From a virus: a DNA stretch of 64,000 nucleotides. A program made the position numbers and the translations under genes. Numbering within the stretch: position 1 is the first letter of the stretch; each line of letters opens with the position of its first letter. The stretch is from IMG/VR virus record IMGVR_UViG_3300037493_002747, positions 1-64,000 of that record. The stretch is one strand, 5' to 3'. Shown here in pieces: positions 7,489 to 64,000 of this stretch. The notes under the pieces were generated by a model. That model searched no databases and was not told where the DNA came from. It saw nothing but the letters and a program-made list of their open reading frames with translations.

Positions 7489-7491
7489 GAC

Positions 7492-7746: not shown

Positions 7747-7752
7747 TTCCAT

Positions 7753-7781: not shown

Positions 7782-7799
7782 TTGATGGAGGATAAAACG

Positions 7800-8350: not shown

Positions 8351-8353
8351 GCA

Positions 8354-8590
8354 ATGAAACTTCGAGACAAGGTACCGGAATGCTTCATGCTTGAGTTTTC
8401 GGACACTCGGGCGGCGAAGTTCTTGGATGTCGAGGTGGTTAAGGAACATTCACCGGATGAGGATAATGTTCGATGGCCTGGTTCGCATCATCATGTTCAC
8501 ATTTGGTGGGAGATGGCGAATGGGTACGGGGTAGCCTGGAACGAGAATCCGGCTCGTGGATATTCATTTCCTGTCGTCAAAATCGTCTAG
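8354..8590 (+). CDS. Unknown small protein
   Basis: A 78-residue protein with a histidine cluster (GSHHHVHIWW near residues 43-52). It is the last gene of the operon led by promoter copy 4. No family recognised. Confidence 0.55.
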   Translation: MKLRDKVPECFMLEFSDTRAAKFLDVEVVKEHSPDEDNVRWPGSHHHVHIWWEMANGYGVAWNENPARGYSFPVVKIV

Positions 8591-8595
8591 TTGAA

Positions 8596-8624
8596 CCGTA
8601 TTGTGACTGACTTTCTGCAATGTA
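8596..8624 (+). promoter_or_regulatory. CCGTATT-N14-GCAATGTA element, copy 5
   Basis: CCGTATT at 8596-8602 and GCAATGTA at 8617-8624, spacer 14, followed by GGAGGAC and the ATG at 8640. Confidence 0.75.
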
Positions 8625-8639
8625 GTGGTGGAGGACAAT

Positions 8640-9047
8640 ATGAGCAATGTTAAAGCTATTCGTATTCAGGGGGAGTTGAACACACTGGCGTTGATGTCTG
8701 CTCCGGAATCTACCGACCCTAATTTGGAAGGGTTTAGTTTTGGAGCCAGCGACTTGATTCGGGGACATAACATTCCTGGGGACAAGGTCAATCTTGCGAT
8801 TGAAGCAGCCAAACGTATCAACAAGTTATTGGCGACCACTACGTTCCCGCACAGTGGATTGAAAGTGTATTTCGACAAAGTCCAGTGTCGGGTAGAGAAG
8901 AATGGATACAACGGTCAGATCAACTATTTTCGGTATACTATCGAGGGGCGAGAGGCTGTTTCCTTTAGGTGGTTCGATGAGTTGGTTGCGGCACTTGAAA
9001 TTTTCGGCAAGGTGACTCTTCGGGCTTGCCGGGATATGGATGCATAA
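8640..9047 (+). CDS. Unknown protein
   Basis: A 135-residue soluble protein of mixed helix and strand. The ATG at 8640 is preferred over an in-frame GTG at 8625 because GGAGG lies between them at the right distance. First gene after promoter copy 5. No family recognised. Confidence 0.6.
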   Translation: MSNVKAIRIQGELNTLALMSAPESTDPNLEGFSFGASDLIRGHNIPGDKVNLAIEAAKRINKLLATTTFPHSGLKVYFDKVQCRVEKNGYNGQINYFRYTIEGREAVSFRWFDELVAALEIFGKVTLRACRDMDA

Positions 9048-18130: not shown

Positions 18131-18143
18131 TCTTTGATATATG
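18131..18143 (+). promoter_or_regulatory. TTCTTTGATATTC-type element at the tmRNA start
   Basis: TTCTTTGATATAT immediately precedes the GGGGACG 5' end of tmRNA at 18144, as expected if this motif acts as a -10-like box with initiation about 7 bases downstream. This anchors the position of the motif relative to an RNA end. Confidence 0.55.
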
Positions 18144-18554
18144 GGGACGAGTGGTTTCGACGAGTGTTATTGAAACTGGTCGACATGCCGAGGACACAGG
18201 TGGGCCTCGTAAATCATCCTGTAAAAAAACAACTGCCAACACTTTTGGCAAGGTGATTCGTGGTTTCTTTGGAGTGGCTGCTGAGGCTACTCCGATGCTT
18301 GCCGCTGCCTAAACAGGCACACCTCCAAAACTCCGGAGTTTCTATGACAACCGGATGAGGATCAAAGAGAATAGATGACGGTCTGCAAAGACAGGCGATG
18401 CCGGGAATGAGACGCACCGGGGCGGATAGTCGAAGACATCCCTGAAAGAAGGGATAGACCAAGTCCGTGGTCGAGAAACATCGTGACGAAGCATGTGTAT
18501 GTTCAGTTGATTTATTATTCGGACAGGGGGTTCGACTCCCCCTCGTCTCCACCA
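18144..18554 (+). ncRNA. ssrA: Transfer-messenger RNA (tmRNA)
   Basis: A complete 411-base tmRNA. The 5' end GGGGACG pairs with CGTCTCC near the 3' end; the third pair is G-U, the alanine identity signal G3-U70. GGGGG-TTCGACT-CCCCC is a perfect T arm, and ACCA is encoded (18551-18554). CATGCCGAGG and GGCCTCGTAAA are the conserved stem preceding the tag region in bacterial tmRNAs. The resume codon is GCC at 18235. It would rescue stalled ribosomes and tag nascent chains, either supporting or redirecting host trans-translation. No smpB gene is visible in this window, so host SmpB is presumably used. Confidence 0.95.
18235..18312 (+). other. tmRNA tag-peptide reading frame
   Basis: Twenty-five sense codons from the resume GCC to TAA. 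The peptide begins A-N-T-F-G-K-V-I and ends P-M-L-A-A-A. It keeps the AN start and the hydrophobic LAA-type protease signal of bacterial tags but is longer than the 10-11 residues common in well-known bacteria and ends in three alanines. Confidence 0.8.
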
Positions 18555-18914: not shown

Positions 18915-18991
18915 TGCGGGGTAGAGCAGCCCGGTAGCTTATCAGGCTCATAACCTGAAGGTCGCTGGTTCAAATCCAGCCCCCGCAACCA
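18915..18991 (+). tRNA. tRNA-Met(CAT), initiator type
   Basis: A 77-base cloverleaf with TGCGGGG/CCCCGCA acceptor stem, anticodon loop CTCATAA (anticodon CAT), T arm CTGG-TTCAAAT-CCAG and encoded ACCA. The sequence follows bacterial initiator tRNA-fMet closely (AGAGCAGCCCGGTAGCTT D region, AAGGTCG variable region). The first pair is T1-A72 rather than the strong G-C of elongators, keeping a weak end as initiators do. The anticodon stem has two of the three usual consecutive G-C pairs. A phage initiator tRNA could favour phage start codons. Confidence 0.9.
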
Positions 18992-19054: not shown

Positions 19055-19098
19055 AATGTTCTGTGTGGAACATTGGGAATAAGGGTGCCGAAAGGCAC
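19055..19098 (+). promoter_or_regulatory. Structured 5' leader of the TROVE gene
   Basis: Two clean hairpins lie between the terminator and the TROVE start: AATGTTC/GAACATT (19055-19074) and GTGCC-GAAA-GGCAC (19085-19098, a GNRA tetraloop). GGTG/CACC can form a third stem just before the AAGGAGGT ribosome binding site. Because the encoded protein family binds structured RNA, autoregulation through this leader is possible. Confidence 0.4.
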
Positions 19099-19140
19099 AA
19101 AATTGGTGGTAGAGATATCACCTTCAAGGAGGTAAGAGAA

Positions 19141-20895
19141 GTGAATAAGGTAAAGAAGGTCGCAAGGAGTAGGGCTTCGGTAGCAAGTCTGCCGAGCAAC
19201 GCAAAGGCCGCATCGGTAAACCGGGCGGGCGGAGTGGCATTCGAGGTAAATGATCCGGCATTGAAGTTGATCACCATGACTGGTGGGTCTTTCTTCGCCG
19301 AGCCGAGGTTCTATAACGCAGAGGCATGTGTACCTAAGCGTGGGACTGGCGGTAAGTTCGAGAAGCTGGCAGCGAGGCTAGAGATCGTGGATGGCAAGCT
19401 GAAGGGCTTTGTCACCTGTGATGAGCTTCCTGAGACGGCTCGTGAGGTTATCGCAACGGCTATCGATGTCGCCAAGGGTAAGACCCCGGAGGACATGCTG
19501 GCAATCGCCAACTGGCTTCGTAATGAGATGAACATCCGGATGACCCCGCAGATTTTGCTGGTGTTGGCATCTCAGATGGATGGGACTAAGTCACTGGTTC
19601 GGAAGTATGCGACTCACATCGTGAAGCGTCCGGATGAGGTTAAGACCTGTCTGTTGACTCATCGTTTTCTGTTCGGGCTGAAGAATCTCCCGAATGGCCT
19701 AGCGAGTGGATTGGCTGATGCTACGAGTAAGTTCGGTGAGCGTGGGTTGATGAAGTACGACGACTCTGGCTTTCCGACTTGGAAGGACGTTCTTTGCTGG
19801 CTTCCGCGTAAGGCTGGATGGCCGCTGAGTGCTGAGGTCGCCAAGTATTTCATCACCGGCAAGATTGATGACCCGGCTAAGACTCCGATCATCGCGGCTC
19901 GTAAGGAGTTGGTGAAGAAGACTGTGTTCGATACCGAGGCTCGTGACCTGGCAAAGAAGTCCCAAGTCAACTGGGAGGTCTTGCTGTCTCAGTTCGGTAA
20001 GGAGAAGAACAAGGTGTGGTCGTTTCTGATCGACAACGGTCTGATTGGCTACATGGCTCTGCTCCGTAATCTGAAGAACATCTTGGAGGCGAAGGTTTCC
20101 AAGGGTGTCATTCAGAAGGTATCGGATAAGCTCTCGAACAAGGACGAGGTTGCCAAGTCAAAGCAGCTTCCGTTCAGGTTCCTGTCGGCAAAGACGGTAT
20201 TGGATACTATGTCTAGTGGTTTCGATCTTGCGGACTACTCGGAGGTCGTGGCGGCTATTGAGTTGGCGGCAAATGAGGCATGTGCCAATATCCCGGTAAT
20301 GTCGGGTGAGACCATGGTGTTTGCAGACAATTCTGGTTCGATGACGAGTGCAAAATTGTCGGAGAAGTCGGCACGGAACTGTCGTGATGCTGCAAATATG
20401 CTGTCTGGTATCGCCGCCAAGGTATGTGAGAGGCCGTACCTGTTCGCATTTGGATCGAGTCTTCAGGAGATTCGTTTTGCCAAGACGGATACCGTAATGG
20501 GTATCTGTGACAAGGTAAAGCGATCAGGGGACGGTGGTTCTACGAATGGTCACCTGTGCATTGAGCATTTGATCAAGTCTGGGAAGACTCCGGCACGGGT
20601 TATCATCCTGACGGACTGTCAGATGTGGAATGATAACAGTAACGGTGGTGGTCAGCCGTTTGCGAATGCATGGGCGAAGTACCGGAAGTCAAGTAAGGCT
20701 GCGGCGGAGACTTGGCTTCATATCGTTCACCTTTCGGGATACGGGGATAGTCCAGTGGATGTGGGAGAGAGGGTGAATCAGGTCTCTGGGTTCTCAGAGA
20801 AGGTATTCACATCGATCCTCACTGTCGAGGGAGTTATGGGATCTACTCCACTCCCTACGGTGGAGCAGGTAAGGAATGGGTGGACGGTGAAATAG
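19141..20895 (+). CDS. Ro60-like TROVE RNA-binding protein with vWA domain
   Basis: A 584-residue homologue of the Ro60/Rsr autoantigen family. Residues about 30-370 form the HEAT-like TROVE ring; the conserved GYMALLRNLKNILE (303-316) is the strongest landmark. The C-terminal von Willebrand A domain has an intact metal site, FADNSGSMTS (DxSxS at 396-400) and IILTDCQMW. Bacterial Ro proteins bind misfolded RNA and Y RNAs and can tether the exonuclease PNPase. The GTG at 19141 is chosen as start because AAGGAGGT lies 8 bases upstream; a frame extending to 19063 runs through leader hairpins. Position after tmRNA and tRNA and before a terminator suggests an RNA-handling module. Confidence 0.92.
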   Translation: MNKVKKVARSRASVASLPSNAKAASVNRAGGVAFEVNDPALKLITMTGGSFFAEPRFYNAEACVPKRGTGGKFEKLAARLEIVDGKLKGFVTCDELPETAREVIATAIDVAKGKTPEDMLAIANWLRNEMNIRMTPQILLVLASQMDGTKSLVRKYATHIVKRPDEVKTCLLTHRFLFGLKNLPNGLASGLADATSKFGERGLMKYDDSGFPTWKDVLCWLPRKAGWPLSAEVAKYFITGKIDDPAKTPIIAARKELVKKTVFDTEARDLAKKSQVNWEVLLSQFGKEKNKVWSFLIDNGLIGYMALLRNLKNILEAKVSKGVIQKVSDKLSNKDEVAKSKQLPFRFLSAKTVLDTMSSGFDLADYSEVVAAIELAANEACANIPVMSGETMVFADNSGSMTSAKLSEKSARNCRDAANMLSGIAAKVCERPYLFAFGSSLQEIRFAKTDTVMGICDKVKRSGDGGSTNGHLCIEHLIKSGKTPARVIILTDCQMWNDNSNGGGQPFANAWAKYRKSSKAAAETWLHIVHLSGYGDSPVDVGERVNQVSGFSEKVFTSILTVEGVMGSTPLPTVEQVRNGWTVK

Positions 20896-46841: not shown

Positions 46842-49800
46842 ATGTCGGATTGGACCAGTTACGAAAAAGAGCGATTCTATCATATCGCTCGACAAGCAGA
46901 AATCGTGGTCATCAAGGACCGTGATGTCATCGCGTTTATCCCCGAAGCCATAGGGCTTGCAGCTACACAGGGGATTGATCTTTATCGTAAAAGTGATGAG
47001 ACATATTCCATGTGGAAGTCTACTCCGCCTGTTGCAGTAGAAGCTTCCGAAAGATTGCTTTGTTGGACTAGAGTTTCAGGAACAGAGATGGTGTCGGGTT
47101 ATAGATGGGTTCCTTATATTACTTCCGACAACCCGGACACTACAAAGATATTGCCATTGCGGGAAGTGTTTTCCCCACGAGTAACCTATGACAGAACTAG
47201 CAATATGTTACATCTGTGGTTCTGGACGAATGTCAAATGGGATTACACGGGAACGGAATATTCCGAGGACAATATTTTCAAGATTGGGTACAAAGACTAC
47301 AAAAGCTTTTTTGACAATGCCGCTAACAAGATGACGTGTAAACGAGTCTTGTGTTATGCGGTAGGACAGTTTGGAAATTACTGGATAAAGGGCGGATTGA
47401 TTGATGGTTATCAAGGATTTTTGGGGCTACAAGGTGTCCAGAATGATCAGTATGACATTATTCCTGTTTTCACTCGACCGACGATCATTACAAATTTTTC
47501 GGTAACGAGTTTGGATGACGCTCCCGGACTTATTACTGATGGATGGTACGAGATTCAGGGTATCCAAAGTGGCTTTCAAGGATTCCAAGGCTTTCAGGGA
47601 TTTCAAGGCTTTCAGGGTTTTCAGGGCTTTCAAGGATTTCAGGGTTTTCAGGGATTTCAAGGATTTCAGGGATTTCAAGGATTTCAGGGATTTCAAGGAT
47701 TTCAGGGATTTCAAGGCTTTCAGGGCTTTCAAGGATTTCAGGGGTATCAGGGTTTTCAAGGATTCCAAGGCTTTCAGGGATTTCAAGGATTTCAGGGTTT
47801 TCAGGGATTTCAAGGCTTTCAGGGTTTTCAGGGATTTCAAGGCTTTCAGGGTTTTCAGGGATTTCAAGGCTTTCAGGGTTTTCAGGGTTTTCAGGGATTT
47901 CAAGGCTTTCAGGGTTTTCAGGGATTTCAAGGCTTTCAGGGTTTTCAGGGATTTCAAGGCTTTCAGGGTTTTCAGGGATTTCAAGGCTTTCAGGGTTTTC
48001 AGGGATTTCAAGGCTTTCAGGGTTTTCAGGGGTATCAGGGCTTTCAAGGATTTCAGGGGTATCAGGGATTTCAAGGCTTTCAGGGATTTCAAGGCTTTCA
48101 GGGTTTTCAGGGATTTCGAGGCTTTCAGGGTTTTCAGGGATTTCAAGGATTTCAAGGTTTTCAGGGCTTTCAAGGCTTTCAGGGTTTTCAGGGATTTCAA
48201 GGATTTCAAGGTTTTCAGGGCTTTCAAGGCTTTCAGGGTTTTCAGGGGTATCAGGGTTTTCAGGGGTATCAGGGCTTTCAAGGATTTCAGGGGTATCAGG
48301 GTTTTCAGGGGCTTCAAGGATTTCAGGGTTTTCAGGGGCTTCAAGGATTTCAGGGTTTTCAGGGGCTTCAGGGTTTTCAAGGGTTTCAGGGTTTTCAAGG
48401 AAATCAGGGATTTCAGGGGAATCAGGGTTTCCAAGGGAATCAAGGATTTCAGGGGAATCAGGGATTTCAGGGGAATCAAGGTTGGCAGGGCAATCAGGGA
48501 TTTCAGGGGAATCAAGGTTGTCCGGCGTGCATGACTGCCAGCGATATCTATCTACCAACATCAGGGTCGGGGTATGCATACCCCGACGTGAATAGTGATT
48601 GTTGGTCAGCAGGAGAGATAATTTGCATATCGGTTAGTGGGAAAGTAGATCAAGGCACCATCTCGTACATTAATGAGGGTTCTATTCGATTTACACTTGA
48701 TACTAATCCTTCGACGGGGGGGTACTATTCAAATGGAACCATATGTCATGGTGGTTGTGCTATCGGAATGCAGGGTTTTCAAGGAAATCAGGGATTTCAA
48801 GGCAATCAGGGATTTCAAGGGAATCAGGGATTTCAGGGGAATCAGGGATTTCAGGGAAATCAGGGAAATCAGGGAAATCAGGGCAATCAGGGCAATCAGG
48901 GAAATCAGGGAAATCAAGGGAATCAAGGGAATCAAGGGAATCAAGGGAATATGGGGTGGCAAGGTCCGCAAGGTTTTCAGGGATTTCAAGGGAATCAAGG
49001 ATTTCAAGGGAATCAAGGAAATCAGGGATGTTCGGCGTGTGTTAAGGGTGAGTTCAATGATCAGGGATCAGGCAATATCTTTATCAGGGTCTTTACACCT
49101 GATTCGGCAGATTGTTTCATTACTGGAGAAACGATTTGTATTTCTGATAATAGTAGTGGAGTAGTTTTATGTTCCGCAACAGTTACCAGCATTTATTTGG
49201 AGAACAACGGTTTCTACGGCAATAATACTAATCCTTCGACGGGGGGGTACTATTCAAATGTAACTGTATGTCATGGTGGTTGTGCTATCGGGAATCAGGG
49301 ATTTCAGGGGAATCAGGGATTTCAGGGGAATCAGGGGAATCAGGGATTTCAGGGCAATCAGGGATTTCAAGGGAATCAAGGGATACAAGGGAATCAAGGT
49401 ATTCAGGGATTTCAAGGATTTGCAGGATGTGCGGCATGTGAGCAGACGCACAGCTCTTCTCAGGGCATCAGCATACCAACATCGGGGACTGGTAGTGCCC
49501 AGTTGGATTATACTCACAAAGATTGTTGGACTGTAGGAGAAACAATATGCGTATCGGTTAATGGGGGGGTATCATATCAATGTTCCCTTACGAGTAAGAG
49601 TGAGATTGGCGGGTTTGATATCTATTTTACACCTAATACTTATCCTTCTGTCGCCATAAGCAATGCTGGTGGAATGGTATGTCATGGTGAATGTGTAACC
49701 CAAGGACTTCAGGGATTTCAGGGGAATCAAGGTTGGCAAGGGAATCAAGGATTTCAGGGGAATCAGGGCTGGCAAGGAAATCAAGGTTTCCAAGGAAATC

Positions 49801-50126
49801 AGGGATTTCAGGGGAATCAGGGTTTCCAAGGGAATCAAGGCTGGCAAGGGAATCAAGGATTTCAGGGGAATCAAGGCTGGCAAGGGATACAGGGGCTACA
49901 GGGATTTCAGGGCTGGCAAGGAATACAGGGTCCGCAAGGGATACAGGGGATACAGGGGCTACAGGGATTTCAGGGCTGGCACGGAATACAGGGAAATCAA
50001 GGGCCACAAGGGTACCAAGGCCCTGAGATGACATTTGCAACGATTGGAACACCTGTGTATATTCTTGGCAAGGATGCGGGCGGGAACATAGGATGGGTTG
50101 CAGTACAGACATTTACATGTCCATAG
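46842..50126 (+). CDS. Collagen-like tail fibre protein with Cys modules
   Basis: A 1094-residue protein. Residues 1-243 form a globular head. Then come four Gly-X-Gln arrays: the first (about 244-557) almost pure GFQ, later ones GNQ, GWQ and GIQ. Between arrays lie three related modules of about 85 residues, each opening with C-x-x-C, containing C-W/F-x-x-G-E-x-I-C and closing with CHGGC or CHGEC. The C-terminus is a short cap (GTPVYILGKDAGGNIGWVAVQ). Gly-X-Y periodicity suggests a trimeric, collagen-like stalk, but prolines are almost absent, so stability would rest on Phe/Gln packing. Probably a host-binding fibre. Confidence 0.75.
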   Translation: MSDWTSYEKERFYHIARQAEIVVIKDRDVIAFIPEAIGLAATQGIDLYRKSDETYSMWKSTPPVAVEASERLLCWTRVSGTEMVSGYRWVPYITSDNPDTTKILPLREVFSPRVTYDRTSNMLHLWFWTNVKWDYTGTEYSEDNIFKIGYKDYKSFFDNAANKMTCKRVLCYAVGQFGNYWIKGGLIDGYQGFLGLQGVQNDQYDIIPVFTRPTIITNFSVTSLDDAPGLITDGWYEIQGIQSGFQGFQGFQGFQGFQGFQGFQGFQGFQGFQGFQGFQGFQGFQGFQGFQGFQGFQGFQGYQGFQGFQGFQGFQGFQGFQGFQGFQGFQGFQGFQGFQGFQGFQGFQGFQGFQGFQGFQGFQGFQGFQGFQGFQGFQGFQGFQGFQGFQGFQGFQGYQGFQGFQGYQGFQGFQGFQGFQGFQGFRGFQGFQGFQGFQGFQGFQGFQGFQGFQGFQGFQGFQGFQGFQGYQGFQGYQGFQGFQGYQGFQGLQGFQGFQGLQGFQGFQGLQGFQGFQGFQGNQGFQGNQGFQGNQGFQGNQGFQGNQGWQGNQGFQGNQGCPACMTASDIYLPTSGSGYAYPDVNSDCWSAGEIICISVSGKVDQGTISYINEGSIRFTLDTNPSTGGYYSNGTICHGGCAIGMQGFQGNQGFQGNQGFQGNQGFQGNQGFQGNQGNQGNQGNQGNQGNQGNQGNQGNQGNQGNMGWQGPQGFQGFQGNQGFQGNQGNQGCSACVKGEFNDQGSGNIFIRVFTPDSADCFITGETICISDNSSGVVLCSATVTSIYLENNGFYGNNTNPSTGGYYSNVTVCHGGCAIGNQGFQGNQGFQGNQGNQGFQGNQGFQGNQGIQGNQGIQGFQGFAGCAACEQTHSSSQGISIPTSGTGSAQLDYTHKDCWTVGETICVSVNGGVSYQCSLTSKSEIGGFDIYFTPNTYPSVAISNAGGMVCHGECVTQGLQGFQGNQGWQGNQGFQGNQGWQGNQGFQGNQGFQGNQGFQGNQGWQGNQGFQGNQGWQGIQGLQGFQGWQGIQGPQGIQGIQGLQGFQGWHGIQGNQGPQGYQGPEMTFATIGTPVYILGKDAGGNIGWVAVQTFTCP
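47571..48515 (+). repeat. Nine-base GFQ codon repeat array
   Basis: About 105 tandem 9-bp units of GG(A/C/T)TT(T/C)CA(A/G), with occasional GYQ, GLQ or GNQ units. Because the unit has few stop-like triplets, all six frames stay open here for hundreds of codons; only the frame of the fibre gene is meaningful. Higher-order near-identical blocks indicate expansion by unequal recombination. Confidence 0.9.
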
Positions 50127-50830: not shown

Positions 50831-50885
50831 TTCCACAAGACCTGACGCATTGGTATATAATGAGGTGGTATTGCTGGAGGTCTAT

Positions 50886-53800
50886 GTGGCTTTTGTAAGT
50901 ATTGATTTGTCGAATTCTTTGGTTGTGCATGATGCCTACGAGCAAAGGACGGCTATTGCCGATCTTGGTGGGTATTGGGACGCCCAAAACAAGGCTTGGC
51001 GTATCGTATTCACGATTGCCAATTTGGAAGCACTCCTTGACGCTATTCCCGACATTTCAACATCGGAAGACTTGGCTGTAAAGGTCAAGGATCAGATGGA
51101 TAAGGAAGCCAAGCTGGAAAAACTTCGGGTGATGTCAAAGCAGGATACGCAGGTGTGTCTGCGTATTCCGGGTATGAAGCTTTCACTATACAACTACCAG
51201 CGGCTTGGCGTTATGTATGCGGCAACTAATCGTGTAGGACTATTGCTGGCGGATGAAATGGGACTAGGGAAAGGGACAACCATTGATAGCCAAGTATTTA
51301 CGACTTTTGGAAAGGTTAGAATCGGATCGTTGAAGGTGGGCGACGAGGTAGTAGGCAAGGATGGAAAACCTCATAACGTGATTGGAGTTTACCCCCAGGG
51401 AATGCGAGAAGTTTACCGTGTGTGGTTCAACGATGGGTTCTATCTTGACGTGGACAGTTCTCACTTATGGGAAGTAAGGTCTAACAACCAGCACAGCAAG
51501 GTGAGGAAAACGTCTGGGGTCGTCCTTTCGATGGAACAACTTCTGGACAAGGACGGTGTTGCGGAACGTGTCGGTGAAGGAAGGAATAGCGGTAAGACCT
51601 ACAAGTTCAAAACCTACTACAAGAAAACGAACGGGAACAACTCATGGGGAATACCGATGGTTGACCCCATCCAGTTCGTACACCGCACCATAGACATAGA
51701 CCCGTACCTCCTCGGAGTCTGGCTTGGCGATGGACATATTATGAAAACAGGGTATGTAAACCTAGTAATGCTAAAGGCAGACCTTGCTGATATGAATGTT
51801 GGAGGCAAGATTGGAAGAGTAGACGCATCACACATGGAAGCTCGTCTTTTCAATACACATAAACAGGAGTTGGTCAATCTTGGTTTGAACGGAAAGAGAG
51901 CTTGGGAGAAGTTTATACCTGATGACTATAAATACAATTCCGAAGAAGTTAGACTTGCGGTGATTCAAGGATTGATGGACACAGACGGACACGCATCGGA
52001 TTGTGCGACCGAGTATTCGACCAGTTCTAAGCAGTTGTGCGACGATGTGGTTGAGATTGTGCAGACGCTTGGTGGTATCGCAAGGGTCAGGTCCAGGATT
52101 CCACGTTACTGGTATAAGGGAGTAAAGAAGACGGGAAGGACGAGTTACAGTGTCAATATCAAGTTGCCTCCTAGTATTGTTCCGTTCCGTCTACCAAGAA
52201 AGGTTGTGGACTATGATAAGTGTGACAAGTATAGTCCCGAGCGATACATTTGTAATATAGAAAAACTCGCAGAAAAGAAAGAAACGGTTTGCATCTCAGT
52301 CGATGCTCCTGACAATCTTTATGTCACGGAACATTGTATCGTTACCCACAACACCCTCCAGGCCATTGGTACAGCAATGTTCTTAAAGGCTTCGGATGGG
52401 GCGAAGAAGGCACTTATTGTTACGCCAGCATCACTCAAGTTTAACTGGCCATTGGAGATCGAGAAGTTTACAGATGAGAAGTACGTGGTCATTGATGGTA
52501 CGCCGGATGAGAGAGTTGCGCAATGGCTTCGGGATGATGTGTTTTTCTATGTCGTCAATTTCGAGCTGTTACTGGAAGATTTGTTTGGAGGCAGGAAGTT
52601 CAGGGAGAAGAAGGGTGAGTCCGATGAGGACAGGCAGAGAAGGTTGGACAGGCATGAAAAGATTTCTACTAAAGCGAAACAGAGGCGGGGGATACTGACG
52701 ACAGTTAGGAATAGGGTATGGGATGTAATAGCGGTGGATGAATGTTTTCCGTATGGAACGATGATCGAAACGGATAAAGGACGGATGAGTATTGGAGATG
52801 TCGTATCTCAAAAATTGCCAGTGTCCGTTTTGTCTTGTGATTTTTCAAGGAATGTGTCATCGTATCGACGTGTTGTTAGATGGATGGAAAAATCTATGTC
52901 TGGACACCTCGTGGAGGTGACGCATGAAAGAGGAAGTTTTGTCTGTACTTGGAATCACAAAATCTGGACAGATGAATGGGGATATATCAAAGCGGGTGAA
53001 GCCACGAAGTATGGTGAAGCGCATTTGCGAGTTTTGCCATCACGAGTTCGATGCACCTCGCAAGGGGAAGTCAACACCGAGATTTTGTTCGGTGGTTTGT
53101 TCCGGAAGATTCAGACAGATGTGTCAGGACACCGTGGCGAAACAAGTGGCAGCAAGAACGATGCCAAAGATAGTGTTCAATTGTATGGAATGCGGTCGAG
53201 AGTTTGTGGTCAGGACGACAAAAGAGCAGGAGAGGAGATTTTGTTCGAGGAGGTGTGTGGCGATCTGGAGGTCAAAAACAGAGGATCGGAAAGACAGAAT
53301 GTTGAAGATGCAGGTGGCCTGCGGGTTAGTAACGAAGGGAAAGCCGAATCTGAGATTCTCCAAGTTTATGACAGAGAAGAATCAAGACCCGGTATTCCGA
53401 CAGAAGGTGATGGAGGGGGCAGCAAAGTGGAGGGAGACACATCCATCATTTCTTGTGAGGGGCGGGAAACCATTCATAACGAAGCCGCAGAGATTGTTGG
53501 CGGAAGCTCTTGGAGAAGAATGGGAGATGGAATACAAGGTCTCCGACAAGAGAATGGCAGATGTGTTGGTGAGTCCACCTCGGTTCTATCAGATAGACAT
53601 TGCAAATGTGGGAATGAAGATTGCTGTAGAGGTGGACGGAAGAACCCACAGGATGACGAAGTGGAAGATAATCGATGCTCGGAAGGAGAAGGCTTTGTCT
53701 TATCTCGGTTGGAAAGTATTAAGGTTCTGGAACGAAGAGATTTTGAAAGACTTGGACTTGGTAGTCCGGAAAATCTCCGAGTCTATAATCTCGAAGTAGA

Positions 53801-54842
53801 AGCTGATACGGACGACGATCATTGTTATGTTGCTGATGGTGTCCTAGTTTCTAATTGTCAAGCACTCAAGCATCATTCGTCCACCCGGACTCAGAATGTG
53901 CTGAACTTAAAGGCCAAGTGTCGTATGGCTTTAACAGGGACTCCGATGGATGGAAGGCTTGAGGAATTGCACAGTTTGATGCAGTTTGTGGCTCCCGGAC
54001 TTCTCATGTCCAAGACTCGGTTTTTTCAGAGGCATGTTGAGACGGACTTTTGGGGTAGGGTGACTGGGTACAAGAGAATGGGAGAGGTATCTCAGAAGAT
54101 TCAACAGTTCTTTCTTCGCAGGTTGAAGAGGGACGTTTTGAAGGACTTACCGGACAAGGTTTATGAGAATCGGCTAGTGTCCTTGACGGCTGAAGAACAC
54201 AAAATTTACAAGGCTCTGGCGGAGCAAGGGCATGAGGCGACAGAAGATGTTTTGGCAGTAGTTTCAGTTATTCGTTGTAAGCAGTTTTGTAATTATCCTC
54301 AGATGGTGGATGCGTCGTGTACGACAACGTCAAAGATGGATTCCTTCAGAGAGGTTCTGGATGAGGTTGTGGTCCAGAATGGTCATAAAGCATTGGTGTT
54401 CAGTCAATACAAAGAAATGCTGAATATCCTTGTCCCTGAATTGGAGAAGATGGGTATAAAGTACATGAGGATCGACGGAGACACTCCTCCAATAGAGCGG
54501 GCTTCGATGCAGAAGAAGTTCAATGAGGATAAAAGTCTTGATGTGATGATTGGAACTGAGGCTATGTCAACAGGGCTGAATTTCCAGTCAGCGGATTATG
54601 TTATCAACTATGATGACAATTGGTCTCCGGCTATTATGGCGCAACGTGAAGATAGGTGTCACAGGAATGGGCAGAGGAATGTGGTTACGGTAGTGAACTT
54701 CATTTGTAGAGACACGATTGAAGAACGTATCCGTGGAGTCATCTACGCGAAGAACAGGGTTACGGCACAAGTCCTTGGAGATGAGACTGATGATATGGTC
54801 TTGAGAAGACTTGGTCCAAAAGATGTTTGTCAGTTGTTGTGA
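50886..54842 (+). CDS. SNF2-family (SF2) DNA helicase containing two inteins
   Basis: The precursor has 1318 residues. Removing inteins at 51273-52352 and 52743-53855 leaves a helicase of about 587 residues. Joined motifs: DEMGLGK+TLQAIG (Walker A), VTPASLKFNW (Ia), AVDE+CQALKH (Walker B), ALTGTPMDG (III), KALVFSQYKEML (IV), GTEAMSTGLNFQSADYVINYD (V) and AQREDRCHRNGQ (VI). SNF2 ATPases of this size move along DNA in replication or recombination. The GTG at 50886 is chosen because GGAGG (50876-50880) lies 5 bases upstream; the open frame extends to 50850. Both inteins interrupt ATPase motifs, so the helicase is inactive until splicing. Confidence 0.9.
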   Translation: MAFVSIDLSNSLVVHDAYEQRTAIADLGGYWDAQNKAWRIVFTIANLEALLDAIPDISTSEDLAVKVKDQMDKEAKLEKLRVMSKQDTQVCLRIPGMKLSLYNYQRLGVMYAATNRVGLLLADEMGLGKGTTIDSQVFTTFGKVRIGSLKVGDEVVGKDGKPHNVIGVYPQGMREVYRVWFNDGFYLDVDSSHLWEVRSNNQHSKVRKTSGVVLSMEQLLDKDGVAERVGEGRNSGKTYKFKTYYKKTNGNNSWGIPMVDPIQFVHRTIDIDPYLLGVWLGDGHIMKTGYVNLVMLKADLADMNVGGKIGRVDASHMEARLFNTHKQELVNLGLNGKRAWEKFIPDDYKYNSEEVRLAVIQGLMDTDGHASDCATEYSTSSKQLCDDVVEIVQTLGGIARVRSRIPRYWYKGVKKTGRTSYSVNIKLPPSIVPFRLPRKVVDYDKCDKYSPERYICNIEKLAEKKETVCISVDAPDNLYVTEHCIVTHNTLQAIGTAMFLKASDGAKKALIVTPASLKFNWPLEIEKFTDEKYVVIDGTPDERVAQWLRDDVFFYVVNFELLLEDLFGGRKFREKKGESDEDRQRRLDRHEKISTKAKQRRGILTTVRNRVWDVIAVDECFPYGTMIETDKGRMSIGDVVSQKLPVSVLSCDFSRNVSSYRRVVRWMEKSMSGHLVEVTHERGSFVCTWNHKIWTDEWGYIKAGEATKYGEAHLRVLPSRVRCTSQGEVNTEILFGGLFRKIQTDVSGHRGETSGSKNDAKDSVQLYGMRSRVCGQDDKRAGEEILFEEVCGDLEVKNRGSERQNVEDAGGLRVSNEGKAESEILQVYDREESRPGIPTEGDGGGSKVEGDTSIISCEGRETIHNEAAEIVGGSSWRRMGDGIQGLRQENGRCVGESTSVLSDRHCKCGNEDCCRGGRKNPQDDEVEDNRCSEGEGFVLSRLESIKVLERRDFERLGLGSPENLRVYNLEVEADTDDDHCYVADGVLVSNCQALKHHSSTRTQNVLNLKAKCRMALTGTPMDGRLEELHSLMQFVAPGLLMSKTRFFQRHVETDFWGRVTGYKRMGEVSQKIQQFFLRRLKRDVLKDLPDKVYENRLVSLTAEEHKIYKALAEQGHEATEDVLAVVSVIRCKQFCNYPQMVDASCTTTSKMDSFREVLDEVVVQNGHKALVFSQYKEMLNILVPELEKMGIKYMRIDGDTPPIERASMQKKFNEDKSLDVMIGTEAMSTGLNFQSADYVINYDDNWSPAIMAQREDRCHRNGQRNVVTVVNFICRDTIEERIRGVIYAKNRVTAQVLGDETDDMVLRRLGPKDVCQLL
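51273..52352 (+). mobile_element. Intein 1 (class 3-like) in Walker A, with LAGLIDADG endonuclease
   Basis: A 360-residue intein between K and T of the Walker A lysine-threonine pair. Residue 1 is glycine, not Cys/Ser. The class 3 signature is present: Trp in block B (SSHLWEV), Cys in block F (VCISVDAPDNLYV) and Thr in block G (IVTHN, followed by extein T). Class 3 inteins use the block F cysteine instead of residue 1 to start splicing. Two LAGLIDADG motifs (LLGVWLGDGHI and IQGLMDTDGHA) give a homing endonuclease. Confidence 0.85.
52743..53855 (+). mobile_element. Intein 2 (class 1) in Walker B, overlapped by a separate gene
   Basis: A 371-residue intein between DE and CQALKH. It starts with Cys (CFPYGTMIETDKG), has block B (SFVCTWNHKIWTDEWGYIKAGE), block F (VYNLEVEADTDDDHCYV) and ends GVLVSN followed by extein Cys, all canonical. 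The middle (about residues 110-345) has no LAGLIDADG or HNH motif in this frame and looks compositionally odd; in the +1 frame the same DNA encodes a different endonuclease. The frame stays open over the entire overlap, as it must for splicing. Confidence 0.85.
52924..53799 (+). CDS. Vsr/DUF559-like endonuclease nested out of frame in intein 2
   Basis: A 291-residue protein in the +1 frame relative to the helicase, with its own ribosome binding site (GGAGGT at 52913-52918, ATG at 52924). Two zinc knuckles: CEFCHHEFDAPRKG...FCSVVC (about residues 35-60) and CMECGREF...FCSRRC (about 82-106). The C-terminal nuclease core has MADVLVSPPRFYQIDIAN, KIAVEVDGRTH and KALSYLGWKVLRFWNEEIL, the Vsr/DUF559 (EDxHD-like) fold known from phage homing endonucleases. 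Its reading frame is the one that looks like a conserved protein, while the intein frame tolerates it. It probably mobilises the intein. Confidence 0.85.
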   Translation: MKEEVLSVLGITKSGQMNGDISKRVKPRSMVKRICEFCHHEFDAPRKGKSTPRFCSVVCSGRFRQMCQDTVAKQVAARTMPKIVFNCMECGREFVVRTTKEQERRFCSRRCVAIWRSKTEDRKDRMLKMQVACGLVTKGKPNLRFSKFMTEKNQDPVFRQKVMEGAAKWRETHPSFLVRGGKPFITKPQRLLAEALGEEWEMEYKVSDKRMADVLVSPPRFYQIDIANVGMKIAVEVDGRTHRMTKWKIIDARKEKALSYLGWKVLRFWNEEILKDLDLVVRKISESIISK

Positions 54843-59044: not shown

Positions 59045-59078
59045 TTGACGATGTTCGTTGCGAATGATAGTGTACACT
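59045..59078 (+). promoter_or_regulatory. Sigma70-like promoter with palindromic operator candidate
   Basis: TTGACG (59045-59050), a 17-bp spacer and TAGTGT (59068-59073). The perfect 10-bp palindrome AGTGTACACT (59069-59078) covers the -10/start region. Downstream, GTCGA/TCGAC and a GGCC-flanked palindrome lie in the 60-bp leader before the sigma-like gene. Confidence 0.5.
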
Positions 59079-59134
59079 TTGTTTTAGGCCATATTGGCCA
59101 TATATGTCGATTTTCGACGAAAACAAGGAGGCGT

Positions 59135-60331
59135 ATGATTGGGCAAACTGGGCAAAATTTAGGCATTTCTGTTCGCGACAAGATTCAAGCAATCAAATCT
59201 TCTGGTAAAAGTTCAGAACCTTATTCCTCTGCATCTGCAATCCTAGCGATTCGAGCAATCAGGAATGACGTACTTAAAGGTTCAAAACCTTGTTCTGTCA
59301 TAGGTGTTACTGATCCACCTGTAGTCATTTCCGTTCGTGATAAGATTAAAGCAATCACTGCTGCTGGCAAAGGTTCAAAACCTTCTGATTTTCCTGTATG
59401 TGTTTCCATCATAGACGGTATTCGATCACTCACGAATACTGTGATCAAAGGGTCAAAACCTTGTGCTGTTGTACCTCCAACTGTCAATACGCATAAGGTT
59501 ACTGTAGCTCCTCCAACTCCTCCAACTGTCAATACGCATAAGGTTCCAGATAGTCAGAAGCTTGAACTTGTTAAGCAACTTGGCAAGTCGAATGCGGACA
59601 ATCTTGGGACTGTAATTGTTGCGACTCCATTGGCAGATGACGATAAGGATGTCGAACTAACGCGGGACCAGATGGCAGTAGCTGTGGCTCGTGATATGTC
59701 TGGAGTCAAACCTCTTTCAGAAAAGGATCGTATTCGGTACAACCGGATGTTGTATGATTCGATTCATGACTTGGTCTATCAGCGGGCGTCTCGATACCAT
59801 ACGACTTGTCCCGACGAGTCTGTTGATGACCTTTCGCAAGAGTGTATGTATCAACTTATGAGGAAACTACACGGATTCGATCCTAAGAGAGGTGCCTTCT
59901 CGACTTGGTCGTGGCATGTCTGCAAGGCAACGTTGAATAGGAAGTATCGAAAAGGCAAGCGAGATAGAAACGTCATTGTGAGTGGCCATTTTGTGAATGA
60001 AGATGGTGAAAGCACGCTGGAGAACAATCCTAAGCAACTTATTGAGGGTGTACAGACACACGAATGCCCTGGAGTTCTGGCATCAGAGATGATGACTGCT
60101 GTAAGGGAGTTAGTTGAAAAACACCCTAGGGAGAAGCATCTTCTCTTAGAGATATTCGGAAACCCAGATTCGGAAGATTTTGTTATGCCGAGCTATGTCT
60201 GTGTGGCAAAATCTGCAAAGGCTGTTGGGATGAAATACAGTCAGGCTCAGTTCTTTTTCAAAAAGGTAGTCCGACCGTTCATGTGGAGTAAGTTTATGGG
60301 GGGTGATAATGACAACGACATTGTGGACTAA
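59135..60331 (+). CDS. Sigma70-family RNA polymerase sigma factor with N-terminal repeats
   Basis: A 398-residue protein. Region 2 is clear: YDSIHDLVYQRASRYH, DESVDDLSQECMYQLMRK (2.1/2.2) and GAFSTWSWHVCKATLNRKYRK (2.3/2.4), about residues 205-275; a shorter region 4-like helical end follows (VCVAKSAKAVGMKYSQAQ). The first 117 residues form about four degenerate repeats with I-R-x-I...GSKP, for example ISVRDKIQAIKSSGK and ISVRDKIKAITAAGK, then a Pro/Thr linker with NTHKV twice. AAGGAGG precedes the ATG. It may direct host polymerase to one of the two phage promoter classes. Confidence 0.75.
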   Translation: MIGQTGQNLGISVRDKIQAIKSSGKSSEPYSSASAILAIRAIRNDVLKGSKPCSVIGVTDPPVVISVRDKIKAITAAGKGSKPSDFPVCVSIIDGIRSLTNTVIKGSKPCAVVPPTVNTHKVTVAPPTPPTVNTHKVPDSQKLELVKQLGKSNADNLGTVIVATPLADDDKDVELTRDQMAVAVARDMSGVKPLSEKDRIRYNRMLYDSIHDLVYQRASRYHTTCPDESVDDLSQECMYQLMRKLHGFDPKRGAFSTWSWHVCKATLNRKYRKGKRDRNVIVSGHFVNEDGESTLENNPKQLIEGVQTHECPGVLASEMMTAVRELVEKHPREKHLLLEIFGNPDSEDFVMPSYVCVAKSAKAVGMKYSQAQFFFKKVVRPFMWSKFMGGDNDNDIVD

Positions 60332-60743
60332 ACATCAGTACGCCAGATGTTATGGACACTGGGTCGTATCTGATCCAGAATGTGTCAAGTGTGCTCTCTC
60401 GGATGGTTGTGAGAAGAGGACAAAGGCTAAGGTTTCGGAAGTTGATCACGCGAAAGAAGTGGAAGTTGACAGTGGTCCAGAAGATGTAAAGACGGTTTTG
60501 CCTCTCGATTATTTACTTCAGAGTCTTGGGGGAAAGTTCGATCAAGAGACAGAAGAGAAGGAGAAGGAGCGGGCGACAATTCACAAGTTTCATGATGTTA
60601 AGACCAAAAAGGCTATGATTGCTGTAATTGTTGGATCTTCTGGGAGAGTCAAGATCGTCTCTGTTCCTAGGAACATTTCCAAGGTGTTAGAAGGAATAGA
60701 TAGCATTGAACAGGTTGAGTTGGTTTTGGCGGAGATATTGTGA
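60309..60743 (+). CDS. Unknown protein with N-terminal Cys cluster
   Basis: A 144-residue protein. RCYGHWVVSDPECVKCALSDGC near the N-terminus is a likely zinc site. The rest is charged with a strand-rich end (AMIAVIVGSSGRVKIVSVP). The ATG at 60309 is preceded by GGGGGG; it overlaps the sigma gene by 23 bases and ends in a GTGA overlap. Function unknown. Confidence 0.5.
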   Translation: MTTTLWTKHQYARCYGHWVVSDPECVKCALSDGCEKRTKAKVSEVDHAKEVEVDSGPEDVKTVLPLDYLLQSLGGKFDQETEEKEKERATIHKFHDVKTKKAMIAVIVGSSGRVKIVSVPRNISKVLEGIDSIEQVELVLAEIL

Positions 60744-61642
60744 ATACTATTGACTATCCTTGGTATCACCCTCCTTTCCCGGAGTATAATGAGGCACAGA
60801 CGGCTGTTATACCTTTCATAGACAAGGACTTGAACTTGGTAATCTCTTTTGCTACAGCGGTAGGTAAGACAGTTCTGGCAGAGTGTTGTTTCGGTTATCA
60901 CTTGGCAAATAGAGAGGACTGTAGGGTGGCATACATTTGTCCGTTCAAGAGTCTGGCATCGGAAAAGTTCAAGGCTTGGACGGATGACTCGCAACTCGGG
61001 CAATATGGAGTTGTGCTATGGTCTAGCGATAGTAATGATGATAGAAGGGATGGAAGACTGATTGTATCTACGCTGGAATCATTCGATATGAAGACTCGGT
61101 CAAAGGGATGGGATGATTGGATTAGCAGTTTTGATGTGGTCGTTTTTGACGAAGCACATATTATCGGTGATGAATCGAGAGGCGGGGCAATGGAGGCAGC
61201 AGCCATTAGGCTGGCAGATAAAAATCCAAAGGCGAGGATTGTTTTCTTATCAGCGACAATGGGGAATGCCGGAGATTTAGCAAAGTGGGTCAAGACGCTT
61301 AATGGTAAAAACACGAAGTGTATTACGAGTTCATGGAGGCCGACGAAGGTACGAACGGAATACCATATCGTGGATGGTCACGACGAGAAGACAGCCAAGG
61401 CCGTGGAGCTGGCAACACAATCTGCATTCCAGAAGACATTGGTGTTTGTGCATTCTAAGGTGACTGGTGGTAAAATAGTCAAGAGTTTGAGATCATCAGG
61501 AGTTCGATCCGTATTCCACAATGCCTCCTTATCGGCGGCAAAGAGGAGAAAGATCGAGGAGGCATTTAACAACCCAACATCGGGACTAAACGTTTGTGTG
61601 AGTACATCGACGTTGGGTGCCGGGGTCAATATGGGGAATTGA
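60740..61642 (+). CDS. Ski2-type (SF2) helicase, N-terminal half
   Basis: A 300-residue protein ending inside a helicase domain. Motifs: FATAVGKT (I, 38-44), CPFKSLASEK (Ia), VVFDEAHII (II, DEAH 137-140), FLSATMG (III, 171-173), KTLVFVHSKVTGGKIVKSL (IV) and CVSTSTLGAGVN (V). The chain stops three residues after motif V. Motif VI and the winged-helix/ratchet part are encoded by the separate gene at 62529. Start is GTG at 60740 overlapping the preceding stop (GTGA). It cannot be an active helicase alone. Confidence 0.85.
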   Translation: MNTIDYPWYHPPFPEYNEAQTAVIPFIDKDLNLVISFATAVGKTVLAECCFGYHLANREDCRVAYICPFKSLASEKFKAWTDDSQLGQYGVVLWSSDSNDDRRDGRLIVSTLESFDMKTRSKGWDDWISSFDVVVFDEAHIIGDESRGGAMEAAAIRLADKNPKARIVFLSATMGNAGDLAKWVKTLNGKNTKCITSSWRPTKVRTEYHIVDGHDEKTAKAVELATQSAFQKTLVFVHSKVTGGKIVKSLRSSGVRSVFHNASLSAAKRRKIEEAFNNPTSGLNVCVSTSTLGAGVNMGN

Positions 61643-61669
61643 CTCGTTTTCATAATTTAGGAGGATGAC

Positions 61670-62263
61670 GTGGATAAGACAGCGCAGCTTACAGCATTGA
61701 AGGCAGAATGTTTGGCGTGTCGGCGTTGTGAGATCGGTGGACAGATGATTGGAGATAAGTTCTTGGGGAATGTGTTCTCCAATATGAACTGTACGGCAGA
61801 GTACATGGTTGTAGGGCAGAACCCCGGCAAGGAGGAGACGGAGAGGGAAGAGCCGTTCGTTGGTATTTCAGGAAAGATGTTCGACCAGCTTGTTGAAGAA
61901 ATCCTTGGCATGAAGCGATCTATGTTCTACATCTCCAATACCGTTCATTGCTACACTCCTGGCAATAGGAAGCCAACAATGGGAGAGGTGTATAACTGCA
62001 AGTATTTTATGGATTTGGAAGTTAGGGCTCTCAATCCCAAGGTGGTTATATCCCTTGGAGGTCCGGCATTTGAGCAGTTGACGGGGATACATGGAATTAT
62101 GAAGCATCATGGTAACCCGGCATTCTCTCCACGGTATAAGGTACCTGTGTTTCCATTGTTGCATCCTAGTCCGATCAACCTGAATGACCCGGCGAAGCTG
62201 GAGTTGTTTGTAGCTGACTTGGTTAAGTTGGAGGAGTTCATCAAGAAAGGGTGTGTGATGTGA
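61670..62263 (+). CDS. Uracil-DNA glycosylase, family 4 (Fe-S type)
   Basis: A 197-residue protein. ECLACRRCEI supplies the first cysteines, YMVVGQNPGKEE is the catalytic/uracil-pocket motif, NTVHCYTPGNRKP and YNCKY supply the other cluster cysteines, and VFPLLHPSP is the C-terminal conserved block. It removes uracil from DNA. AGGAGG precedes the GTG start. The gene lies between the two halves of a split helicase. Confidence 0.88.
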   Translation: MDKTAQLTALKAECLACRRCEIGGQMIGDKFLGNVFSNMNCTAEYMVVGQNPGKEETEREEPFVGISGKMFDQLVEEILGMKRSMFYISNTVHCYTPGNRKPTMGEVYNCKYFMDLEVRALNPKVVISLGGPAFEQLTGIHGIMKHHGNPAFSPRYKVPVFPLLHPSPINLNDPAKLELFVADLVKLEEFIKKGCVM

Positions 62264-62529
62264 GATTCAAGGACTCCCTTCATCTGTACCAAGATGTTGA
62301 AGACTTCTTAGGAGACATGCGTGATGGAACATTGAAGGAAGGGTTCATATTTTCACAAGAAGTGTGGAATGGATTGATGGAAAAGGTAAATACCGATCCG
62401 GTATTCGCGGGCGACATTATTGACAATGGGATCTTATTGCTCATGGCGGCTGATTCCAAGTCAGAGATTGATGGATTGATGGTACTGGCAGAGGTATGTC
62501 GTGAAAATACTGTAAAGACAGGTGATTGA
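62260..62529 (+). CDS. Unknown small acidic protein in the helicase split
   Basis: An 89-residue acidic, helical protein (LYQDVEDFLGDMRDGTLKEG). Start GTG at 62260 overlaps the glycosylase stop (GTGA); its TGA overlaps the ATG of the helicase C-terminal half (TGATG). Function unknown; perhaps a partner of the glycosylase or of the split helicase. Confidence 0.55.
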   Translation: MRFKDSLHLYQDVEDFLGDMRDGTLKEGFIFSQEVWNGLMEKVNTDPVFAGDIIDNGILLLMAADSKSEIDGLMVLAEVCRENTVKTGD

Positions 62530-63551
62530 TGTCAGATGTGGTTATAGTGGTAGGGACTAAGCGTGGTAAGGAGAATGTCTCCACGATAGAACTCAAGCAG
62601 ATGGTGGGTCGGGCTGGTAGGAAGCATGGTGGTGAAACGGCATTGGCTCATGTTCTGGTAGAGGATGATCGAGTCGCTGAAGTTCAAGATGGCCTAGACC
62701 ATGGCACCAATATGGAAGTTCATTCCACATTTGGGGCAGGAGACCGATTGATTTTCCATTTGATGCCAGAGATAGTATCGGGAAGGGTTGTGAATGCAGC
62801 TACGGCACATAAGTGGTATTCCAGAAGTTTGGCGTCTTATCAGGGTGACAATGTTGACTTCTTAAGGCTCTTTGACAAGATGAGTAAGATGGGGGCGGTA
62901 GAGTTGGAGTCTTCCGACGAGGTCCGTCCGACTAAGATTGGAAAGATTGCATCTGATTTGTATTTTCATCCGGGAGATGTTCAAGCTTGGAAGGACAATT
63001 TCACCAAGTTGTTTGAGATGGGATTGGAGAATGATAATGCGGCGATAGCCTGGGCATTAGGAACGAGGACACATACGAAGTGTTATGGGGATTTTGGGGA
63101 TTCGAGGTTCATCATTGGAGAATGTAAGAGTGCTTTGCCATTGGGATTAGAGATGGAGGCTGGAACGGTTACGCAGGTTGTGTTGTGGTGGTGCGCTATG
63201 GGTGGGCCTCCTGCTGGTAAAATGAGAAACCAGATGCTTACACTCCGGGAAGACATTGGAAGGATCAAGAGGGCATTGGTGAGGATTGACCGGGAAGAGG
63301 CTGGATGGAATAGGGGCAGTTTCTTTGACGATGTTGAGTTAATGGTTAGTAAGGGGATAGGCGTCAACTTGATTGATTTATGCAAACTTCCCGGAATTAC
63401 GAAAGGAAGAGCGGATTTCTTGTATAATGCAGGAGCAAGGGGTGCCGACAGTATTGCAGACATTATCCAGAACATAGAGGACGATATTGACGAACCTTTT
63501 AGAATGGCATTGAAGGAGATAGCAAGTGGGATTCGCAAACAGAGCCGTTGA
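62529..63551 (+). CDS. Ski2-type helicase, C-terminal half
   Basis: A 340-residue protein starting MSDVVIVVGTKRGKENVSTIELKQMVGRAGRKHGG: the strand after motif V followed by motif VI (QMVGRAGR, 24-31). Then come a winged-helix and ratchet-like helical region (about 100-250) and a HhH-like end (GVNLIDLCKLPGITKGRADFLYNAGARG, about 275-302). Together with the product of 60740-61642 it makes a complete Ski2/Hel308-like enzyme. The ATG overlaps the preceding stop. Alone it has no ATP-binding motifs. Confidence 0.85.
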   Translation: MSDVVIVVGTKRGKENVSTIELKQMVGRAGRKHGGETALAHVLVEDDRVAEVQDGLDHGTNMEVHSTFGAGDRLIFHLMPEIVSGRVVNAATAHKWYSRSLASYQGDNVDFLRLFDKMSKMGAVELESSDEVRPTKIGKIASDLYFHPGDVQAWKDNFTKLFEMGLENDNAAIAWALGTRTHTKCYGDFGDSRFIIGECKSALPLGLEMEAGTVTQVVLWWCAMGGPPAGKMRNQMLTLREDIGRIKRALVRIDREEAGWNRGSFFDDVELMVSKGIGVNLIDLCKLPGITKGRADFLYNAGARGADSIADIIQNIEDDIDEPFRMALKEIASGIRKQSR

Positions 63552-63981
63552 AGTATGTCTTCGGGATTGGTCAGTTGGAAGGGTTGATGAAGGACATATC
63601 CGGGATGTCCTCAAATGCAGGAATGTGGATGTGAATGGGATGGAAGAATTTCTGAATGATAAATATCCTACGGAAATTCGATGGGCTGCGGCAAGGGTCT
63701 TGATGGATAAGGGTCAGGCGAAAGAGGTGGTTGCTGCGGCAATGTTGTCTCAGGACCGTGAATCCATATTGGCTTTGTTAAGTTTGATGGGGAGGAACAA
63801 GCAGGGAATAGAAGTTTTGGAAGGACTGGTCTCATCCGAGGATACAATGATTCGAGATGCGGCGGTTGAAATGTTTAGAAAGGCAGGAAAGGTGGATGCT
63901 ATCTTTCCGCTGATCTTTGACAGAGATGACATTGTCGTAAAAAGGATTAAACGGTACATAGATGAAGCGGGACAGCGTTGA
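63526..63981 (+). CDS. HEAT-repeat-like protein
   Basis: A 151-residue helical protein. Repeats such as YPTEIRWAAARVLMDKGQAKEV and EDTMIRDAAVEMFRKAGKVDAI have the two-helix spacing and conserved R/A positions of HEAT-like repeats, which mediate protein binding. The GTG at 63526 overlaps the helicase gene by 26 bases. It may be an accessory subunit of that helicase. Confidence 0.5.
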   Translation: MGFANRAVEVCLRDWSVGRVDEGHIRDVLKCRNVDVNGMEEFLNDKYPTEIRWAAARVLMDKGQAKEVVAAAMLSQDRESILALLSLMGRNKQGIEVLEGLVSSEDTMIRDAAVEMFRKAGKVDAIFPLIFDRDDIVVKRIKRYIDEAGQR

Positions 63982-64000
63982 TAGGCATGCAGTTCCAGAG

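Follow-up and report, generated by a model that had tools for sequence, protein, structure and literature searches.

The DNA analysed here (the window) is a stretch of 64,000 nucleotides (nt), positions 1 to 64,000 of the 75,760-base virus record IMGVR_UViG_3300037493_002747 in IMG/VR, and its right end carries, on the plus strand, a Hel308/Ski2-like helicase encoded in two separate open reading frames (ORFs) with a uracil-DNA glycosylase (UDG) gene between them. The N-terminal half (60740–61642, 300 amino acids (aa)) contains RecA1 and most of RecA2, including a sequence named motif I in the general nomenclature of superfamily 2 (SF2) helicases (ATAVGKT, 60851–60871), motif II (DEAH, 61148–61159) and the motif V region (STSTLGAGVN, 61601–61630); the break lies three codons further on, with the protein ending in GVNMGN at its stop (C-terminus STSTLGAGVNMGN). 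There follow on the same strand the UDG gene (61670–62263, 197 aa), a gene for a 92-aa protein of unknown function (62251–62529), and the C-terminal half (62529–63551, 340 aa), which contains the last RecA2 strands, motif VI (QMVGRAGR, residues 24–31, 62598–62621), a winged helix, a helical bundle and a C-terminal domain. A sequence-only reading of the window had described a helicase interrupted three residues after motif V, with two complete coupled genes and 27 noncoding bases in the 886 nt between its halves, and the positions and overlaps of the ORFs agree with this. It had also placed the start of the second half just before motif VI, and although motif VI is indeed near the start of this protein (MSDVVIVVG...QMVGRAGR), the ATG at 62529 lies 23 residues ahead of it. 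The genes are closely coupled, with a GTGA at 60740, a 13 nt overlap between the UDG and 92-aa genes, and a TGATG at 62527–62531. A terminator-like hairpin at the stop of the N-half (61623–61645) was considered and rejected, as it shows no excess over shuffled sequences.

The two halves of one helicase

Both halves match a single PHROG profile in register (phrog_6819), with the N-half matching at 24–302 and residues 13–157 of the C-half at 322–467 of its 645 positions. The N-half also matches the Pfam families DEAD (2.7e-18) and Helicase_C (4.2e-7), and the PDB sequence matches of both halves are to Hel308 and other Ski2-like chains. Taking the halves together, motifs I–III of RecA1 and IV–VI of RecA2 are in register with the family profiles; the NCBIfam scores are 103.9 (N) and 37.3 (C) of 1200 bits, against full-length cut-offs that halves of this kind cannot reach. 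In motifs, in fold and in the order of their domains, the two together match the Ski2-like helicases Hel308/Hjm and Brr2, but these are single polypeptides, whereas the window encodes two with a third gene between.

AlphaFold models were built from 33 aligned rows for the N-half and 31 for the C-half, with mean pLDDT (predicted local distance difference test) values of 90.6 and 90.2 respectively. The N model (1–300) aligns with residues 8–340 of Hel308 (2p6r; Z 23.6, 277 aligned, root-mean-square deviation (rmsd) 3.7), and the C model (1–336) with residues 339–686 of the same chain (Z 12.8, 325 aligned, rmsd 9.2), so that RecA2 is followed by a winged helix, a helical bundle and a C-terminal domain. 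The same division is seen with Hjm (2zj8, 1–338 and 337–700) and with Brr2 chains (1307–1658 and 1657–2018). As modelled, the halves are thus consecutive, gap-free parts of Hel308 with complementary predicted structures, and the RecA2 sheet is divided between them: strands up to residue 289 are in the N-half, and strands 4–8 and 39–43, around the motif VI helix, are in the C-half. The RecA2 part of the C-half is modelled less surely, as expected with its partner absent.

The split among related viruses

Relatives were recovered by scanning IMG/VR with alignments of the N-half, C-half and UDG as queries; alignments were needed, as searches of the viral contigs with the single proteins P0001 and P0004 returned no relative. 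The distinct loci with both halves visible comprise 36 that are contiguous, a single open frame running across the junction from the N region to the C region, two (L043 and L051) whose junction is occupied by an in-frame intein, and eight that are split, in addition to the window. The contiguous loci are the unsplit version that the sequence-only reading proposed looking for in related viruses. In all nine split loci (the window, L029, L005, L062, L063, L067, L079, L080 and L083) the cut is the same and the order is N-half, UDG, C-half on one strand, and for three of these loci two records carry identical DNA; the split is neither chance nor an assembly error. All nine have a HEAT-like gene after the C-half, and genes for a DnaB-like helicase, an OB-fold protein and a primase before the N-half. 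A further locus, L066 (in the same record as L086), has an N-half and UDG on a contig that ends before the C-half, and is not included among loci with both halves; six of the seven records searched contain one C-half match each, and that of L066 contains none. L025, with N and C regions in different frames and frame changes throughout, was not counted as split, and L004 lacks a tblastn match to the C-half yet has one annotated 670-aa coding sequence.

The break falls at one place. Unsplit relatives read through the junction as GLNL-PARR-VVILG (L003), and in the split clade the N-half ends G(V/I)N(L/M/I)(G)(G/N)-stop and the C-half opens with M(A/S)D and continues into the next RecA2 strand. 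N-halves end 1–3 residues beyond GVN/GIN in nine of ten cases, L079 extending 14, and all nine C-halves begin with M[AS]D directly ahead of the strand. In L005 the two ends (GVNL-stop and MADRVIIVG) line up one-to-one with the unsplit sequence, with no difference in length. By these alignments, the cut opened the helicase within the loop that follows motif V, inside RecA2, and no helicase residue was clearly lost.

The sequence-only reading had noted that both halves keep all of their motifs, and this is borne out across the clade: all ten N-halves have motifs I, II, III and V, and all nine C-halves have motif VI, with mild deviations (LSAS, LSGT and GRCAR). The motif VI arginines R28 and R31 of the C-half are invariant across 31 split and unsplit rows. 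Identities to the window are 43–82% for the N-half, 46–85% for UDG and 32–79% for the C-half. By the NG86 method, the ratios of nonsynonymous to synonymous substitution (dN/dS) between the window and L029 are 0.052 (N), 0.070 (UDG), 0.095 (C) and 0.37 (the 92-aa gene), but dS is 1.4–2.1 for N, UDG and C, near or beyond saturation, and these ratios are rough. Both halves are nonetheless under purifying selection, and instead of the decayed homologues that would have spoken against a functional pair, we find kept motifs and low dN/dS in both.

The split rows form one group in the trees of both N-regions (100/99; 7 of 45 rows) and C-regions (100/100; 6 of 45 rows), the trees being rooted by midpoint only, and one fission followed by descent is thus the simplest history. 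Pairwise distances of the halves are well correlated (r = 0.89), and those of UDG with the N-half (0.70) and C-half (0.81) likewise resemble core genes; other replication genes give 0.79–0.93 among themselves. In the UDG tree, the UDGs of the split clade have a single origin in 18% of bootstrap trees.

The N-half alignment recovers 25 loci from cellular genome contigs at 23–30% identity, and the C-half alignment recovers none from these contigs. Among GenBank phages there are three records for the N-half and one for the C-half, all at about 30% identity; LR756511 and Mvi-JY20 are unsplit, and the third N-half match, MT835496, is partial. We found no split Hel308-type helicase of a phage in the open-access literature, although one could still be in print.

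Two polypeptides with genes between them

The genes within the breach vary. UDG stands alone in six loci (L005, L062, L063, L067, L080 and L083), and is accompanied by the 92-aa gene in the window, by the 92-aa gene (a 60% identical copy) and a 119-aa gene in L029, and by a preceding nuclease gene in L079. The 92-aa gene was not found in the split lineages other than the window and L029. L066 has several very small ORFs (7166–7923 and 8562–8959), three of them with UDG in the breach and others after UDG; one matches phrog_10299 (1.6e-22), of unknown function.

This variation bears on whether the halves are joined. ORF-bearing inserts at conserved motifs are typical of introns, and the 886 nt could be read as an intron carrying the UDG and 92-aa ORFs. 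However, a search with Rfam over 60000–64000 at E values up to 1 gave no intron and no match of any kind, and no group I or II ribozyme core was found between the halves. Moreover, where nothing else is inserted, the N–UDG and UDG–C spacings are from −11 to +71 nt; in L067, L080 and L083 the N-half stop and the UDG start are at −4 nt, and the UDG stop and the C-half start at −8, −11 and +1 nt respectively. Because the genes abut or overlap in several relatives, and those between the halves differ from locus to locus, we regard splicing as excluded and joining at the RNA level as having a very slim probability, in agreement with the earlier view that there is no space for an intron core. Rejoining of the proteins by split inteins is barely credible. 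Although L043 and L051 have cis inteins at motif V, no split-intein pieces are seen at the termini of the split-clade halves, and there is no space for them, with N-halves ending 1–3 residues after GVN/GIN and C-halves starting M[AS]D.

A third possibility is that the halves act separately, the N-half as an ATPase-like remnant and the C-half as a DNA-binding protein; they do evolve at different rates, and the DNA-binding domains, by fold, are in the C-half alone. Against this, all nine C-halves retain the motif VI arginines, and on Hel308 the two models join at a single seam. In SF2 helicases these arginines act at the ATP site, which here is in the N-half, and we know of no role for them away from it. 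Because they would have no known role in a chain of their own, we infer that the halves physically assemble, presumably into an active helicase; separate action is improbable, and assembly is strongly suggested. The proposal that the halves probably assemble as two polypeptides is accordingly the best-supported reading, from the spacings, motifs and dN/dS.

UDG is the constant occupant, found in every one of the clade's 10 N-half loci. On sequence grounds it is a family-4-like uracil-DNA glycosylase, with the motifs GQNPG and HPSP (GQ(N/S)PG and HPSP across relatives), although its TIGR00758 score of 108.7 bits is below the curated family-4 cut-off of 125.3. Its closest solved chain is 4zbx, to whose cysteines the four cysteines C17, C20, C94 and C110, unchanged in all seven sequences, are aligned; they are spaced in an iron-sulfur (Fe-S) pattern, and we take them to bind such a cluster. 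The GQ(N/S)PG and HPSP motifs presumably resemble those of SMUG1-type enzymes. The best 80 of 130 relatives from the last UDG scan include 12 with an N-half nearby, exactly those with at least 46% UDG identity; the other 68, at 42% or less, have no helicase half in the flanks examined. The N- and C-based IMG/VR scans yielded no split locus without UDG, but some split loci were found through UDG scans (L062, L063, L066/L067, L079, L080 and L083), so loci lacking UDG could be under-sampled.

UDG may stay in the breach as a partner of the helicase in a uracil-surveillance complex, which is compatible with a two-chain motor. UDG is retained throughout the clade at a dN/dS of 0.07 while other cargo turns over, and it tracks the helicase distances; furthermore, E. 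coli Lhr joins a helicase and a UDG in one protein, in which the helicase part raises UDG activity (PMC10953399). Nevertheless, co-inheritance in a tight operon requires no interaction, the UDG–helicase correlations are not above those of other replication genes, and UDG-dependent discovery of several loci weakens the count, and we consider a partnership doubtful. A stronger form, in which N-half, UDG and C-half are translated sequentially to form a three-subunit uracil-surveillance motor, with the RecA2 seam gating the helicase and UDG at or near that seam, is slightly more doubtful; if true, phages would have both an SF2 motor split by nature and their own equivalent of the Lhr helicase-glycosylase.

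Origin of the breach and its setting

Homing elements are found at the same site in relatives. Unsplit helicases of L043 and L051 contain cis inteins at motif V (6696–7979, Intein_splicing 1.3e-16 and LAGLIDADG_3 1.4e-15; and 6684–7979, Intein_splicing 4e-8, below the curated cut-off, and LAGLIDADG_3 8.3e-12), both at the position corresponding to the 295/296 residue boundary, three residues ahead of where the cut sites begin to vary. The unsplit L035 helicase has an in-frame insert at motif II (6390–7460), a putative intein with no Pfam match and one PHROG match (3.3e-7). In L079, a gene for a 284-aa protein with a zinc finger and a DUF559/Vsr-like nuclease domain (8145–8999; DUF559 9e-11, Vsr 3e-7) follows directly after ...GVNIG and precedes UDG, and is a candidate homing endonuclease; it is missing from L080, which shares 61% N-half identity with L079. 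The window's own SNF2-type helicase gene (50850–54842) contains two intein-like inserts, at motif I (~51273–52352; LAGLIDADG_3 4.4e-6, with an unusual first residue, G) and motif II (~52743–53855; TIGR01445 7e-5, below cut-off, and TIGR01443 6e-6). These helicase genes are thus frequent targets of homing elements, which strike motif V, and the L079 nuclease together with the inteins makes motif V look like a homing-element hotspot.

The alternative is that ordinary illegitimate recombination dropped UDG into the helicase, the homing elements at motif V being coincidental or later. UDG is in every split locus, the L079 nuclease may have entered a breach already open, and inteins favour conserved motifs generally. 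However, a Vsr/DUF559-type nuclease and two inteins are all found no more than about five codons from the cut, which lost no helicase residue. We favour a homing-element origin over plain recombination, which remains a serious contender at somewhat under an even chance; the preference is only slight because the intein site is near but not identical to the cut and a nuclease is seen in only one split locus. The description of the helicase as split by the UDG gene thus holds for the anatomy but not necessarily for the agent, which could plausibly have been a homing element with UDG as cargo.

We propose, and consider likely as a whole, that an ancestral Ski2/Hel308-like helicase gene of a phage underwent a single, precise cut in the RecA2 loop that follows motif V, and that its two parts are now translated as separate chains, from one closely coupled operon, and re-form the motor non-covalently. 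The N-half would supply the ATP site (motifs I–V); from the C-half would come the arginines of motif VI, the DNA-tracking domains and the remaining RecA2 strands. The co-inherited UDG gene would hold the breach open, with further genes collecting there. Several observations weigh against this. First, the C-half fits Hel308 with a high rmsd (9.2 Å), and model confidence is lower over its first 70 residues, with block means of 69–87. Secondly, motif VI is changed to GRCAR in L079 and L080, and with L029 excluded the C-halves diverge faster (32–43% identity to the window) than the N-halves (43–59%), besides the near-saturated dS. Thirdly, a nuclease is in the breach of only one of the nine split loci, and the intein site and the split are three residues apart. 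A stably inherited, two-chain Ski2-like helicase with UDG in its breach is nonetheless, in our assessment, real.

SF2 motors are usually treated as requiring a continuous RecA2, and a phage clade that keeps one cut after motif V with both parts under selection is a natural test of non-covalent helicase reconstitution. It would also extend homing-element genes-in-pieces to helicases, with the lasting occupant of the breach a useful repair gene and not a selfish one. In T4-type phages, homing insertions split nrdA, topoisomerase and gene 43, and for NrdA and gene 43 the reassembled enzyme is reported to be active (PMC2988022). In these cases (Aeh1 nrdA/mobE, T4 gene 60/mobA and Aeromonas phage 25 gene 43, with free-standing homing endonucleases) a contiguous essential replication or nucleotide gene is likewise cut at a critical site into two ORFs, whose products reassemble where tested (PMC2988022). 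The window clade differs in that an SF2 helicase is cut in RecA2, that its constant breach gene is UDG, with no endonuclease gene in the window's breach, and that the split is fixed across a diverse clade (N-half identity down to 43%). A 2009 study reportedly described phage-type genes that are broken, the gap being occupied, as in L079, by a free-standing Vsr-like nuclease; here there is no split intein and the halves stay unjoined.

The sequence-only reading called the arrangement rare for an SF2 helicase, passing as it does through RecA2. The split within RecA2 stands, but there is a precedent, nanoarchaeal Lhr being listed as a split gene in a published table (PMC3655853). That too is an SF2 helicase made from two genes, but it is cellular, is a different protein in a context of genome reduction, and UDG is not mentioned in the available part of the source (PMC3655853). 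The phage locus is a second case, after E. coli Lhr, of an SF2 helicase and a UDG genetically tied; Lhr differs in being one chain with an AlkZ-like glycosylase domain (PMC10953399), and not a family-4-like Fe-S UDG.

The genes around the split helicase are in part conserved. The gene immediately upstream (60303–60743, plus strand) overlaps the N-half start by 4 nt at the GTGA and is a neighbour in several split relatives, and just upstream of the operon is a gene for a 428-aa protein with sigma-70 region 2 (59045–60331; 3.6e-11), conserved in most split relatives. The downstream HEAT-like gene, the conserved C-half neighbour, is at 63526–63981 (plus strand). Further downstream in the record are genes for a single-stranded DNA-binding (SSB)-like protein, a UvsX-like recombinase and an exonuclease, placing the split helicase inside a replication-recombination block of a tailed phage; the record also has tail tube (sub-threshold) and tail fibre matches. 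Elsewhere in the window, a 1094-aa repetitive, collagen-like tail fibre protein is encoded at 46842–50126. Lastly, a phage-encoded transfer-messenger RNA (tmRNA; 18143–18554) with the tag ANTFGKVIRGFFGVAAEATPMLAAA and a tRNA-Met (18915–18991) have directly next to them a gene for a Ro60/TROVE-domain protein (19063–20895; TROVE 1.6e-21), and the three possibly constitute an RNA-surveillance module.

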